DNA of 64,000 nucleotides from Prosthecobacter debontii (lineage in GTDB: Bacteria; Verrucomicrobiota; Verrucomicrobiia; Verrucomicrobiales; Akkermansiaceae): positions 1 to 64,000 of the forward strand of contig CAMBTP010000007.1 of NCBI GenBank assembly GCA_945870855.1, written 5' to 3'. The translations under genes were made by a program, and so were the position numbers. Shown here in pieces: positions 1 through 38,705 of the stretch; positions within the stretch are counted from its first letter, which is position 1, and each line of letters begins with the position of its first letter. The notes under the pieces are model-generated. The model was not told where the DNA came from. It made no database searches and saw only the letters and a list, made by a program, of their open reading frames with translations.

Positions 1-52
1 ACCGATTTCCAAGTCCTCCGCAAAGGGGCTGCAAGACCCTTCTCCATACGGA

Positions 53-146
53 GAATTGAACCGCCAAGAGCGCCAAGAAAGAAAAGTGAAGAATGCAAAA
101 AACAATTCCTCCTTGGCGAACTTCTCTTCCTTGGCGGTTCAAATTC
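53..146. repeat. Inverted repeat built on a GCCAAG motif
   Basis: Left arm gaattgaaccgccaag (53-68), right arm cttggcggttcaaattc (130-146); extra gcgccaag / cttggcg inside. Confidence 0.7.
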
Positions 147-174
147 TTCCCATTCGGCAAGGCTGCAACCAGCT

Positions 175-281
175 TACTTCGTTTTTCCATCACAAACCCA
201 AAAAGCTGCGGATGAGAACCGCAGCAGTCAAAAGCCTCCGGCGGCATGGATATGCGCAAGGACTTTTGGCAAATGGTATAG
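175..281 (+). repeat. REP-like palindromic repeat, copy A
   Basis: 175-265 matches the reverse complement of 36802-36892 at 90/91 bases; contains hairpin gctgcgg-atgagaa-ccgcagc (205-225). Confidence 0.85.
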
Positions 282-5676: not shown

Positions 5677-6438
5677 TTATCCGAATCTTCCGGTGATGTA
5701 TTCTTCCGTTTTCTTCACAGTTGGATTGGAAAATATTCGCGCAGTGTCACCGAATTCAATCAGTTCGCCCATGTAGAAAAACGCGGTCTTGTCAGAAACC
5801 CGCGCTGCCTGCTGCATGCTGTGAGTGACGATGACGAAAGTATAGTCGCTTTTGAGCTGAAAAATGAGATCTTCTACTTTCGCTGTGGCGATGGGATCGA
5901 GGGCGCTGCACGGCTCGTCCATAAGAACGATCTGGGGCTTCACAGCGAGCGTGCGAGCAATGCAGAGCCGTTGCTGTTGGCCGCCGGAGAGGCCGAGTGC
6001 TGATTCATCGAGGCGATCCTTGGCCTCATCCCACAACGCGGCAGCTTCAAGTGCTTCTTGCACGGACTGATCGATGACCGCCTTATTTTTCTCACCGCGG
6101 AGGCGGATTCCATAGGCGACGTTTTCGTAAATACTGCGCGGAAACGGGTTAGATTTTTGGAACACCATGCCGACGTCGCGGCGGAGTTTGACGACATCGA
6201 CCGAGCGGTCGTGGATATCGATACCGTTGATATGGATGGAGCCGCGGGTGATTTTGGCGATGGCGATCTCATCATTCATCCGGTTAATGCAGCGGAGCAG
6301 GGTGGACTTGCCGCAGCCGGAGGGGCCGATGAACGCCGTCACTCCGTGGGCTGGGATTTCCAGATTGATATTCTTCAACGCCGGAGACGATCCGTAACGG
6401 AAATCGAGCTCTTGGATGACTACGGAGTGGTCTTGCAT
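5677..6438 (-). CDS. pstB: Phosphate ABC transporter ATPase PstB (second copy)
   Basis: [47 protein letters not shown]. Confidence 0.95.
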
Positions 6439-12787: not shown

Positions 12788-14788
12788 CTACGCCAGTAGG
12801 ACTCCCTCATCTACAGAGGTCTTCCTGTCGGTGAAAACGGGTTCCACCTCGCGATCGGCGGCATTCGCGCGCTCGATGCTTTTGACGTGGCACTGCGCCA
12901 TGAACTCCTCGAAATTGATCAGCTCCATGCGCCCGTCGTGGTGCTCGACGATGGCGGTGAGGCTCTCGACCCAGTCGCCGGAGTTGAGGTAATGGATGTT
13001 GCCGACGCGCTTGTCCTCTGGCGTGTGAATGTGGCCGCAGATAATGCCGTCGCAGCCCTTGTGGACGGCGAGTTCCTGGAGCAGGGACTCGTATTTATCG
13101 ATGAAACTCACGGCGGATTTAACCTTGGCCTTTACGCGCTTGCTTAGGGAAAAATATTCCTTTCCCTGCCAAGCCCGCCAGCGGTTATACCAGCGGTTGA
13201 TGTAGAGGAGGGTGTCGTACCCGACCGAGCCGAGGGCGGCCAGCCACTTGTGGTTCGTGGAAATGCTGTCGAAGCCGTCGCCGTGGACGACGAGGTAGCG
13301 TTTCCCACCCACTGCGGCGTGGATGTATTCTTTGGCGAAGCGGATTTTCCCGAAGGCGAGTGGGAGAAAACGTTCGAGGATTTCGTCGTGATTACCGCGT
13401 AGATAAATGATCTCTGTTTTCCCTTTCTCAGACATCTTGAGAATTTTCCGGATCACGCGGCTGTGGCTTGGCAACCATTTCGAGCCACGCCGCAGCGCCC
13501 AGCCATCTACGATGTCACCGTTGAGGACGAGCTTTTCGCAGCGGACTTGTTTGAGGAAATCGACAACTTCATCCGCCTTGCTATCCGCCGTGCCGAGATG
13601 GATGTCGGAGAGGAAAACGGTGCGGTAAGAAACCTTCTCACGTTTCCCGATTCGCGGCGTTTGAGAGTAGGGTTTGCGAGGGCTTTCCTTAGTGTTGATG
13701 ATCGATTTCAAACGCTCCTCGAACTCGGTGACGACGGCAGCCCAGCCTTGGGACTCTGCCAACTCTCGGGCGGAGATTCGCATCACGTGCCCCATGCGAA
13801 TGGCAAGCGCGGCGTGGGCGCGATCAAGGAAAGCGGCGGCATCTCCTTTGGGTGCTTTCAGGCCGTTGACTCCATGTTCCACGAAACGCGCGGCGGCAGC
13901 GTAATCATAACTGACAGTTACCAAACCGCTGGCCATGCCTTCGAGCACAACGTTTCCAAAGGTCTCCGTGAGACTGGGGAAAAGCAGGATATCCGCCGAG
14001 GCGTAATGCCGCGCCAAGGCCTCCCCCGTCTGGACACCTGCGAAGTGAACCCACGGATGCTTCGCAGCGAGTTTTTCGCGGATCGGCCCGTCTCCGACCA
14101 CCACACAGCGCAGATCCGGCACGGCGGCGCGCATTTGGGAAAAAGCGGTCATCGCGAGCTGCAGATTTTTCTCGGCGGCAACACGCCCCACCACCATCGC
14201 GACGGGGGCCGCCGATCTCGCGCCCCACTCGCCGCGGAGGGTCTCGCAGCGTTTCTTGGGATCGAAGAACAAGGTATCCACACCACGCCCAAGCAGATGC
14301 ACATTTTTAAAACCCTCGGTCTTGAGGCGCTCGACCAGCTCCGGCGAAGGGGCGAGCGTGCAGTCCGCGCGCCCGTGGAAGCGTTTCAGGTAAGCCATCG
14401 CCACCGATTGCAAACCGCGCAGGTTGTAGCGTTCCATGTATTCGTGGAAATTCGTGTGAAAGCCCGTCGCCACTGGGATGCCGAGCGCCTTCGCAGCCTT
14501 CACTGCGGATTTTCCCAGCGGGCTTTCCGTGGCGACATAGATGACATCCGGGCGCTGTTTTTGCCAAAGCTCGCGCAGTTTGAACGGGCCAGGTAGCCCA
14601 ACGCGCACCTCCTTGTATCCCGGCAGCGGCACCGAAGCGGCGATCGTTTCTCCGCGCTTGCCCTCGCCGGTTCTGATCAAGTGGACATGATGTCCGCGGC
14701 TCCGCAGTCCGTCGCTAAGGCGACCCAAGGTCATGGCCACCCCGTTTATATCCGGGGCGAAGGTGTCCGTAACAATGTCTACTTTCAT
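12788..14788 (-). CDS. Fusion of GT4-type glycosyltransferase and LpxH-like metallophosphatase
   Basis: N-terminal GT4 features (PSLTETFGNVVLEGMASGL); C-terminal FLSDIHLGTAD, GDIVDGW, LRGNHDE, ICGHIHTPE. Confidence 0.9.
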   Translation of the reverse strand: MKVDIVTDTFAPDINGVAMTLGRLSDGLRSRGHHVHLIRTGEGKRGETIAASVPLPGYKEVRVGLPGPFKLRELWQKQRPDVIYVATESPLGKSAVKAAKALGIPVATGFHTNFHEYMERYNLRGLQSVAMAYLKRFHGRADCTLAPSPELVERLKTEGFKNVHLLGRGVDTLFFDPKKRCETLRGEWGARSAAPVAMVVGRVAAEKNLQLAMTAFSQMRAAVPDLRCVVVGDGPIREKLAAKHPWVHFAGVQTGEALARHYASADILLFPSLTETFGNVVLEGMASGLVTVSYDYAAAARFVEHGVNGLKAPKGDAAAFLDRAHAALAIRMGHVMRISARELAESQGWAAVVTEFEERLKSIINTKESPRKPYSQTPRIGKREKVSYRTVFLSDIHLGTADSKADEVVDFLKQVRCEKLVLNGDIVDGWALRRGSKWLPSHSRVIRKILKMSEKGKTEIIYLRGNHDEILERFLPLAFGKIRFAKEYIHAAVGGKRYLVVHGDGFDSISTNHKWLAALGSVGYDTLLYINRWYNRWRAWQGKEYFSLSKRVKAKVKSAVSFIDKYESLLQELAVHKGCDGIICGHIHTPEDKRVGNIHYLNSGDWVESLTAIVEHHDGRMELINFEEFMAQCHVKSIERANAADREVEPVFTDRKTSVDEGVLLA

Positions 14789-35479: not shown

Positions 35480-35699
35480 GGTATAGGTTTGTGTTGATTG
35501 TTGGATAAGAATGACTTGATTCTGTTAATTTTTTGCTAAGACAGAGTTTTGATTGCTAATTTGTTATTGGGTGAACGCTCTTGAAAGAGCCGGATATTTG
35601 CGTTTTCTAATACACACAAGAAAATGTCGGCGATCTGCTGGGGCGCAACAATTTTTTGTTTTGCAACTAGCCCAAACTTTGAATAGGCTACCAAGCATT

Positions 35700-36785
35700 A
35701 TGGAACCGATGCGCCGCATGACGACCAGTGAACTCGCCGCCGAACACCTGCGCACCGGCTTGCGGAGCGGACGCTGGGGAGAAACCCTTCCCGGAGTGGC
35801 CCGCTTGGCGCAGGATCTCGATGTCAGCCGTCACACGCTGCGCACGGCACTGCGTCAACTGGAAACCGAGGGGGTGCTTGCTGGCCGCGGCTTGGGACGG
35901 AGCCGCTGCATCACCGCCACCGGCGCGAACATCTCCTCTCAGCGCCCGCTGCGCATTGCGATTCTGCGTCACGACCTGCGTCCCACGGACAATGCCCAGA
36001 CAGCAGCAATCATATTCGAGATCATTCATTCACTGGAAAGCGCAGGCCATACTGCTTTTTTCAGCAAAATATCCCAACTCCAACTCCGCCACGATGTCCG
36101 GCGCATTGCCAAGGAAATGGCGAAGACCCCGGCGGATGCCTGGATCGTCGTGGCTGGGTCACGCCCGCTGTTAGAGTTGTGCGCCAACCTGCCGATTCCC
36201 TGCCTCGCGCTCTACGGCCGCTCCGACGGACTGCCCTTGGCCGGCGCCGGGCTAGACAGGATACAGGCCTTCCGCGCTGTTACTCGCGACCTCATTAAGC
36301 TGGGGCACCGTCGCATCGTACACATCGTGCGAGCCACCCGTCGCGAGCCAGTTCCGGGAGCTCCCGAACGCGCCATCCTAGAAGAGCTCGCCGCCCACGG
36401 CTTGACAACCAACGAATACAACCTGCCGAAGTGGGAGGAGACACCCGCAGGATTTTACAAATTACTCGAAAACTTGTTTCTATATTCGCCGCCCACCGCG
36501 CTAATAGTCGATGAGACAGCGCGATTCATTGCCACCATGGAGTTTCTCTCGCGGAGGGGTATCAAGGTGCCGGAACAAGTCTCGTTGGTTTTCCCCGATG
36601 ACGATCCGGCGTTGGCCTGGTGCCATCATGGGATCGCCCACCTGCACTGGGACTCCAAGCCTCTCATCCGCCGCGTGGTGCGCTGGGTGGACGCCGTGCG
36701 CAAAGGCAAGCCCGACCGCAAAATCATCAATTACCCGGCGGAATTCGTCCCCGGCGGCAGCATCGGCCCGGTGTGGAAAGGGTGA
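35700..36785 (+). CDS. GntR-type HTH regulator with LacI-like sensor domain
   Basis: RSGRWGETLPGVARLAQDLDVSRHTLRTALRQLETEGVLAG then periplasmic-binding-like domain. Confidence 0.85.
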   Translation: MEPMRRMTTSELAAEHLRTGLRSGRWGETLPGVARLAQDLDVSRHTLRTALRQLETEGVLAGRGLGRSRCITATGANISSQRPLRIAILRHDLRPTDNAQTAAIIFEIIHSLESAGHTAFFSKISQLQLRHDVRRIAKEMAKTPADAWIVVAGSRPLLELCANLPIPCLALYGRSDGLPLAGAGLDRIQAFRAVTRDLIKLGHRRIVHIVRATRREPVPGAPERAILEELAAHGLTTNEYNLPKWEETPAGFYKLLENLFLYSPPTALIVDETARFIATMEFLSRRGIKVPEQVSLVFPDDDPALAWCHHGIAHLHWDSKPLIRRVVRWVDAVRKGKPDRKIINYPAEFVPGGSIGPVWKG

Positions 36786-36801
36786 GACGGGCGAGGTTCT
36801 C

Positions 36802-36892
36802 AAGTCCTTGCGCATATCCATGCCGCCGGAGGCTTTTGACTGCTGCGGTTCTCATCCGCAGCTTTTTGGGTTCGTGATGGAAAAACGAAGTA
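36802..36892 (-). repeat. REP-like palindromic repeat, copy B
   Basis: Reverse complement of 175-265 with one mismatch. Confidence 0.9.
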
Positions 36893-36935
36893 TTCCGGTA
36901 GCAACCCGTCGTCCCGTAAAACAAAGCCGTCCTTA

Positions 36936-37033
36936 AGAGCTGTGAATAAAGAATCACAGCAGTCCAGAGCCTGCGGCGCACTCTACTTTGTTGTCACTTC
37001 ATTTTTGCGCACAAACTTTTGGCAAACGGTATA
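36936..37033 (+). repeat. REP-like palindromic repeat, divergent copy C
   Basis: gctgtga-ataaagaa-tcacagcagtccagagcctgcggcgc and acttttggcaaacggtata align to copy A. Confidence 0.7.
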
Positions 37034-37110
37034 ATCGCGGACAACGATTGCCATCTGTCTCTGCCATATTCCCCATCCCCAACGGGGATAACGGCGATAG
37101 CGAAGCCCCT

Positions 37111-38592
37111 TTAAAAATCTCCAAACGCGCCCCGAAGATCAGTCGCCGCGCTTTTTGAGGCGGTTTCTTTTTCCGGGACGAAGGAGAAGTCTTCTTTGGG
37201 TTCGATGTCGATTCCGGGGTTAGCGAGTAGGGGGCGGGTGGTTTTGTCGATGGCCTCGAGGTTGGGGAGGGTAGTGCCTTCGGGGGCGGCTTTGAGCTCC
37301 TCAAATTTCCTCGCGGTGGACATGACGCGGGTCTCGTAGGAGCCGATGGCTTTGTTGTAATTCTCGACAGCGGCGTTGAGGGAGTTTCCGAGTTTTGAAA
37401 AGTGCTCGGCGAGCTTGCCGAGGCGCTCGTGCATGCTGCGGCCGAGGGCGGAGATTTCCTTGGCGTTGAGGGCGAGGGCTTCCTGCCTCCAGCCGTAGGC
37501 GACGGCTTTCAGCAGGGCGATGAGAGTGGTGGGGGTGGCGAGGATGACACCGTTATCCACGCCGCGCTCGATGAGGCTGGGATCCGAATGGAGGGCGGCG
37601 GAGAAAAAGGATTCGCTGGGCAGGAAGAGGACTGTGAACTCCGGGGTGTCCTCGAATTGGTCGGTGTATTTTTTCGAGGAAAGCTGCTGGATGTGAGTGC
37701 GCACCTGGGCGGCGTGCTGGGTGAGAAAACGCTCGCGCTCCGCTTCGTCGGAGGTTTCGAGGGCGTTGAGGTAGGCGTCCATGGGCGTCTTGGAATCGAC
37801 GACGATGGATTTCCCGCCGGGGAGGCGCACAACGAGATCGGGGCGGAGGCGCTTACCCTCGTCGGTTGTGGAGGTGGTTTGGAGGGTGAAATCGCAGTGC
37901 TCCTGCATGCCGGCAAGCTCGACGACGCGGCGGAGCTGCATCTCGCCCCATTGGCCGCGGCCGGTCGGTTGGCGGAGGGCTTTCACGAGCGAGGCGGTTT
38001 CCTTCTGGAGGCCGAGCTGGCCTTCGCCGAGGGCGCGGACTTGCTCTTTCAGTTCGGCATACGCGCCTTCACGGAGTTTCTCGATCTCGCCGATGCGTAG
38101 CTCGAATTTCCCTAGGGAGTCAGCGACGGGCTTGACGAGGGTTTCGATGGCGGTCTTGCGTTTCTCGATCTCGCCCTTCGCCTCTTCGGTTTGCGAGGCG
38201 AGGGTGGATTTGGCGAGGTGGAGAAATTGCTCGGTAGCGCCTTTGAGTGCGTCGGCGGAGAGGGCTTTGAAGGTGTCGGAGAGCTTGATCTCGGCGCGTT
38301 CGAGGAGGGCTTGCTTTTCCTCTGCTGCCTTCCGCTCGGCTTCGAGTTGGCTTTTCATTTCACCGAGCTGGTTGCGGTAGGTTTGGGCTTCGGTCTCATT
38401 GCGCCGCCACTCTGCAGTGGTGGTGGCGAGGCGGGTTTCGGAGTCGGCATTACGGCGCTCCTCGGACTTCAGCCGCTCAGTGAGGGCGGATTTCGCGGAG
38501 CCGGCGGCGAGGTAGGTGACCAGCCATCCGACGAAGATCGAGGCGAGGGCGGTGGTGATAAAAGGAGCGTAGTGTGTGAATTCGGGCGGCAT
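37111..38592 (-). CDS. rmuC: DNA recombination protein RmuC
   Basis: GRGQWGEMQLRRVVELAGM, VDSKTPMDAYLNAL, coiled-coil N-terminus. Confidence 0.93.
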   Translation of the reverse strand: MPPEFTHYAPFITTALASIFVGWLVTYLAAGSAKSALTERLKSEERRNADSETRLATTTAEWRRNETEAQTYRNQLGEMKSQLEAERKAAEEKQALLERAEIKLSDTFKALSADALKGATEQFLHLAKSTLASQTEEAKGEIEKRKTAIETLVKPVADSLGKFELRIGEIEKLREGAYAELKEQVRALGEGQLGLQKETASLVKALRQPTGRGQWGEMQLRRVVELAGMQEHCDFTLQTTSTTDEGKRLRPDLVVRLPGGKSIVVDSKTPMDAYLNALETSDEAERERFLTQHAAQVRTHIQQLSSKKYTDQFEDTPEFTVLFLPSESFFSAALHSDPSLIERGVDNGVILATPTTLIALLKAVAYGWRQEALALNAKEISALGRSMHERLGKLAEHFSKLGNSLNAAVENYNKAIGSYETRVMSTARKFEELKAAPEGTTLPNLEAIDKTTRPLLANPGIDIEPKEDFSFVPEKETASKSAATDLRGAFGDF

Positions 38593-38705
38593 GGTCGGTT
38601 TCTTTCTACTTGCGGGGGCGGGGTTGCTGGAGTTGTTGTGGTTAGCGCGGTTCGTGATAATACTGAACTGCCGCGCCTCTGCAAACAACCAAGCATTTCA
38701 AAATC

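Follow-up and report, generated by a model that had tools for sequence, protein, structure and literature searches.

In the 64,000-nucleotide stretch of DNA analysed here (the window, G000:C7:1-64000), two hairpin-bearing arms lie in inverted orientation between convergent genes, and the locus raises the question of what unit they belong to and what has kept their stems paired. The original prediction described an inverted REP doublet resembling a REPIN, with compensatory changes in one hairpin stem that were taken to imply selection for the folded form as single-stranded DNA or RNA.

Anatomy of the element at 36802-37033

Arms B (36802-36892, minus strand) and C (36936-37033, plus strand) can be read straight from the sequence as homologous hairpin arms in inverted orientation, exactly as predicted. 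They sit between convergent ORFs at 35553-36785 (plus strand; a GntR/LacI-type regulator, GntR + Peripla_BP_3) and 37111-38688 (minus strand; RmuC), both of which turn their 3' ends towards the element. Hairpin B (36842-36862, minus) has the stem GCTGCGG/CCGCAGC and a 7-nt loop, ATGAGAA, and hairpin C (36939-36960, plus) the stem GCTGTGA/TCACAGC and an 8-nt loop, ATAAAGAA. The two stems differ at two pairs, each on both sides, so that the both-sided changes are present as claimed. At the foot of each hairpin lies an AGTC tag (36838-36841, minus, reading GACT on the plus strand; 36961-36964, plus), followed after both stems by GCCT(C/G)CGGCG; the tag accompanies almost every B and C stem, and is also found beside REPs flanking other RAYTs. 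On the plus strand TTTTT comes right after hairpin B. The spacer between the hairpins (36863-36938) is conserved in short copies of the element, and when the whole element is folded as RNA (-76.5 kcal/mol, z -3.5), B pairs with C in a long REPIN hairpin.

The REPIN core, comprising the two inverted REPs and their spacer, spans 36823-36978 and occurs alone in congeners: bare REPINs of G033, G017 and G015 match positions 34-190 of a query covering window 36790-37050, or approximately 36823-36979. Outside this core the window copy carries terminal inverted repeats (TIRs). The right TIR, GCGCACAAACTTTTGGCAAACGGTATA (37007-37033, plus; core at 37015-37033), is intact and matches IS630 ends in congeners. 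The left one survives as a remnant (36802-36816, minus) that has lost its outer part, since other copies go on as TTTTGGCAAAYGGTMTA where the window copy stops after AAGGACTT (AAGTCC). Lacking most of its left TIR, the window copy is probably an immobile, fixed and dead insertion. The REPIN-like reading thus stands for the hairpin doublet but not for the extent of the unit, as the IS630-type TIRs outside the REPIN had been overlooked.

A recurrent unit with IS630-type ends

The window genome (G000; 2.98 Mb in 91 contigs, 91.6% complete) contains many relatives of both arms. The window contains the core CAGCAGTCNNNAGCCTNCGGCG in three copies (A, B and C), a number reached in 0 of 100 shuffles, and a slightly looser core has 83 matches genome-wide compared to one for the reversed pattern. 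BLAST searches of the same genome gave at least 40 strong matches to arm B and about 30-35 to arm C. The B-C inverted pair recurs with near-equal spacing at C5:59553, C8:346, C14:4853, C15:8240, C15:19757, C17:33609 and C66:234, and at least seven short B-C composites are present, with 95-99% identity. The window element itself is 95-99% identical to copies elsewhere in its genome and 88-92% identical to those of G008. B and C are one recurrent unit, rather than separate insertions.

Long forms of about 650-900 bp also exist, in which the B and C arms lie at the ends and the spacer is replaced by other dispersed repeats (C1:65740, C5:46288, C53:19115, C62:13942, C74:799 and window 1-280). Their interiors are mosaics of other repeats (CGCAAAGACGCTAAG..., CCCTATGGAGAAGGGTC..., GGTAGGGTCGTTTTGAC...) in conserved order and without genes. 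Copy A (175-280, plus) is a B arm with an intact TIR (262-280) and forms the right end of one such long form, which is cut by the contig start. Contig ends fall within or near elements in C7, C8, C13, C25, C41, C53, C56, C60, C62, C65, C66, C73 and others; the true copy number is therefore probably higher, the assembly having been broken by the elements.

Two further repeat families were seen in the window genome. A third REP type (GCTACAG/CTGTAGC or GCGGCAG/CTGCCGC) shares the AGTC foot and occurs partly as inverted pairs ~130 bp apart (C2:33842, C15:650, C24:34716/34844, C55:13457/13586, C58:12109/12258, C62:811). Another dispersed repeat, ~170 bp in length, has inverted ends (GGTAGGGC.GATCCGGCTCGGTC) and is found here and in congeners (C17:5633, C5:18014, C6:32266 and about 20 more in the window genome, loci L235-L253).

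In the window genome and G008, ~26-bp TIRs (TAKACCRTTTGCCAAAAGTYC..., read inward) extend beyond both REP arms and are followed by unique DNA. The TIR core ACTTTTGGCAAAYGGTMTA has 63 matches in the window genome against none for the reversed pattern, and is nearly always joined to a B or C arm. Counted by arm, after one spurious row was taken out, TIRs are borne by 61 of 73 arms in the window genome and all seven in G008, compared to 0 of 34 in G033, G015, G017, G004 and G052. In four congeners, IS630-family insertion sequences have ends that match these TIRs. In G005 a full-length IS630 (L294, 353 aa, NF033545 E 5e-60) lies between TAGACTGATTGCCAAAAAT and ATTTTTGGCAAACGGTCTA, in G010 an N-terminal IS630 fragment lies between near-identical TIRs, and the left ends of the IS630 copies in G015 and G017 have about 26 nt in common with the element ends. 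Across copies, the outermost 10 nt of the B-end TIR vary in blocks (AAATGGTATA, AAACGGTCTA, AACCAGTCTA, AACCATTCTA), while the TTTTGGCA further in and the terminal TA hardly vary; IS630 ends show similar variation. The element is 247 bp long and contains no transposase ORF. Searches of the window genome with DDE_3 and with the G010 N-terminal fragment found no IS630 transposase, a weak absence given that the assembly is 91.6% complete and many contigs end in repeats, so that a multicopy IS could be missing from it.

Nearly all intact element ends finish in TA, and one locus allows an insertion to be compared with empty sites. The C17 copy lies within another dispersed repeat, of which ~29 uninterrupted copies were compared, and its joined flanks align without gaps to almost all of them. 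Uninterrupted, the site is GCCRTAATCCC; with the element in place it becomes GCCA-TA-GACC...GGTT-TA-ATCCC, with a TA on both sides instead of a single one. At this one clean locus TA is duplicated on insertion, which is the IS630 pattern; formally, the junction could also fit a TA-ended element inserted next to a TA without duplication. The orthologous site of C5:46288 in G005 is 70% identical, with gaps at the junction, and the flanks of the window copy gave only partial matches in congeners, yielding no empty site there.

The position of the REPIN between IS630-matching TIRs, together with the TA duplication, indicates that the amplified unit in this genome is a ~247-bp IS630-type MITE carrying a REPIN. 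We consider it highly probable that the stretch 36802-37033 is a copy of a non-autonomous composite transposon that multiplied as a MITE and in which IS630-family TIRs enclose an asymmetric REPIN. The observations behind this reading are the recurrence of the unit, the match between its TIRs and IS630 ends, one TA-to-TA insertion, REPINs flanking RAYTs in three congeners, and the covariation of the stems. Under this model, the TIRs of an IS630-family (Tc1/mariner-type) IS would have come to enclose the REPIN of about 156 bp (REP B, spacer, REP C), and the resulting ~247-bp unit (TIR-B-spacer-C-TIR) would then have spread through the genome as a MITE, with an IS630 transposase acting in trans to cut at the TIRs and paste the unit into TA sites. 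The hairpins, once substrates of an HUH RAYT on single-stranded DNA, would now be cargo, and hairpin B with its T5 may provide genes with a portable terminator at their 3' ends.

Stem pairing and the mobiliser

The compensatory changes in the stems are genuine. Among 41 distinct hairpins from seven genomes, standard pairs fill 95.3% of pair cells compared to 83.8% in shuffles, and 41 cells are changed on both sides compared to 11.6 (0 of 500 shuffles as high), although this shuffle control ignores relatedness. For the same hairpins the covariation score is 0.304, falling to 0.077 or less when the partner is slid. Stem variants of B include GCGGCGG/CCGCCGC in G008 and at G000:C20, and GCTGGGG/CCCCAGC in G004; the C variant GCTGGGA/TCCCAGC is found in most congeners and at G000:C30. 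Some young copies carry one-sided changes that break pairs (e.g. G000:C66:404, and L179 in G008).

The further step in the original prediction, from paired stem changes to selection for the folded form, goes beyond these data, because the double changes represent few independent events (about five by our estimate), pairs are broken in young copies, and template switching could give the same pattern. Such selection is plausible. The mutational alternative, in which template switching copies one arm of a hairpin onto the other and so changes both sides of the stem at once, is a serious contender, though we would put its chances below even. Short inverted repeats with a small loop are the classic substrate for template switching, and each stem here is one; the few independent double changes would also suffice for the observed counts. 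Against it stands the asymmetry of B and C, including two stem types, which has been kept across at least six species and suggests recognition by a transposase. Compensatory stem changes in REPIN hairpins have been described before and were called common (Bertels and Rainey 2011, PMC3116915).

A second alternative is that the hairpins have been kept by selection for an RNA function, as terminator, 3'-end stabiliser or small RNA, the copies having been domesticated. The stem covariation would agree with this, but where a hairpin is a transposase substrate, covariation alone is no evidence of RNA function. Elements lie mostly at gene 3' ends, the nearest gene turning its 3' end towards the element in 39 of 52 cases, although the purging of harmful insertions also yields such a bias. 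With T5 behind it, hairpin B resembles a terminator serving the upstream gene; on the plus strand the combination is terminator-like and, given its position close downstream of that gene, a terminator side effect is plausible. However, copies at unrelated loci are 95-99% identical and hence young, young copies with broken pairs persist, and no described RNA family was found in the window (Rfam 15, gathering threshold). We regard an RNA function as rather unlikely to be what has kept the hairpins, and the small RNA reading was dropped for want of an Rfam match.

It is less probable still, and in our judgement improbable, that the element is an ordinary REPIN, mobilised to this day by a RAYT as single-stranded DNA, with the extra ends being a longer REPIN tail. 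Such REPINs do exist in the genus. The asymmetric B/C pair occurs as a bare REPIN of ~156 bp, without TIRs, in G033, G015, G017 and G004, and at G015:C109, G017:C20 and G033:C15 a RAYT gene has such a B/C pair on either side. The G015 RAYT shares 85% identity with its counterpart in G017 and 77% with the one in G033; the G015 and G017 proteins match NF047646. Furthermore, the window genome encodes many Y1 transposases, some of them flanked by AGTC-tagged REPINs. However, the supposed tail is missing from 34 congeneric arms and is equal to IS630 ends, and the one clean insertion has TA at both ends. The closest RAYT-like proteins in the window genome and G008 are 42-49% identical to the cognate RAYTs and have other palindromes beside them; at G000:C6 and G008:C3 there is a different palindrome pair with the foot GACTGC/GAGTGC. 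The flanks of the located Y1_Tnp genes of the window genome contained no B/C hairpins, and a RAYT was rejected as the current mobiliser in this genome on that basis. Finally, the possibility raised with the original prediction, that copy C might align with B by chance without being related to it, is contradicted by ~30 C arms in the genome and by the recurrence of the B-C pair in the window genome and its congeners, and can be set aside with near certainty.

With the element read as an IS630-type MITE carrying a REPIN, the history of its hairpins may be one in which a REPIN lineage changed its mobiliser: it would depend on a RAYT (HUH, single-stranded DNA) in sister species, would have been left without this partner in G008 and the window species, and would have survived there as cargo of an IS630 (DDE, double-stranded DNA) MITE, with pairing maintained. 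We put this at a little under an even chance. A REPIN is commonly regarded as bound to a single RAYT; if the proposal is true, a REPIN has multiplied inside the ends of another transposon, and such populations can outlast their own transposase. The genus offers a natural comparison, with the same hairpins in the presence of the RAYT (G015, G017, G033) and in its absence (window genome, G008).

Outside the window, RAYT-like Y1_Tnp domains were also observed in frame within other genes of the window genome. One lies inside an alanyl-tRNA synthetase of 1161 aa (C10, about 14223-14546; L162) and another inside an IspG/GcpE protein of 842 aa (C58, about 6158-6337; L136). Y1_Tnp ORFs of similar length are present in G004, G008, G015, G017 and G033, which suggests conservation in the genus. 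At C7:72534-73055 (L168/L308) a RAYT ORF continues in frame after a class-III aminotransferase (BioA-like), giving 629 aa in all, and the RAYT part has GACATGTC-type palindromes at both ends.

Relation to known systems

The usual examples of IS630-type MITEs with a TA target are RUP, Correia/NEMIS, Nezha and ERIC. The element resembles this type of MITE in being short, non-coding and mostly intergenic, and in its IS630-matching TIRs, the TA at both ends and the high copy number. It differs in its interior, which here is a complete RAYT-type REPIN and in theirs an internally deleted IS. The MITE class is described in PMC3733652.

As in the GTAG- and CGTC-tagged REPs (Di Nocera et al. 2013, PMC3733652), tagged palindromes are arranged in dimers, and GTAG repeats have been reported in the verrucomicrobial O. 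terrae (PMC3733652). Unlike those superfamilies, nearly all copies here have the foot GACT (AGTC on the other strand). Coxiella QMITE2 (reviewed in PMC10969869) is likewise a MITE, and its truncated copies resemble REPs; however, QMITE2 owes its REP-like appearance to lost ends, whereas here bare REPINs and a RAYT are found in sister species.

The core of the element agrees with REPINs (PMC3116915) in having two inverted REPs and a spacer, in its intergenic location and long hairpin, in the bare copies that flank a RAYT in congeners, and in its compensatory stem changes. In contrast to REPINs, the two REPs differ (B and C types), the tag is AGTC/GACT, and in the window genome IS630-type TIRs surround the REPIN, with no RAYT found there that it flanks. 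A limited literature search, outside subscription journals, found no earlier report of an IS630 MITE with a REPIN in its interior. REPINs, IS630-type MITEs and compensatory stem changes in REPINs are each known; what appears to be new is the REPIN enclosed in an IS630 MITE.
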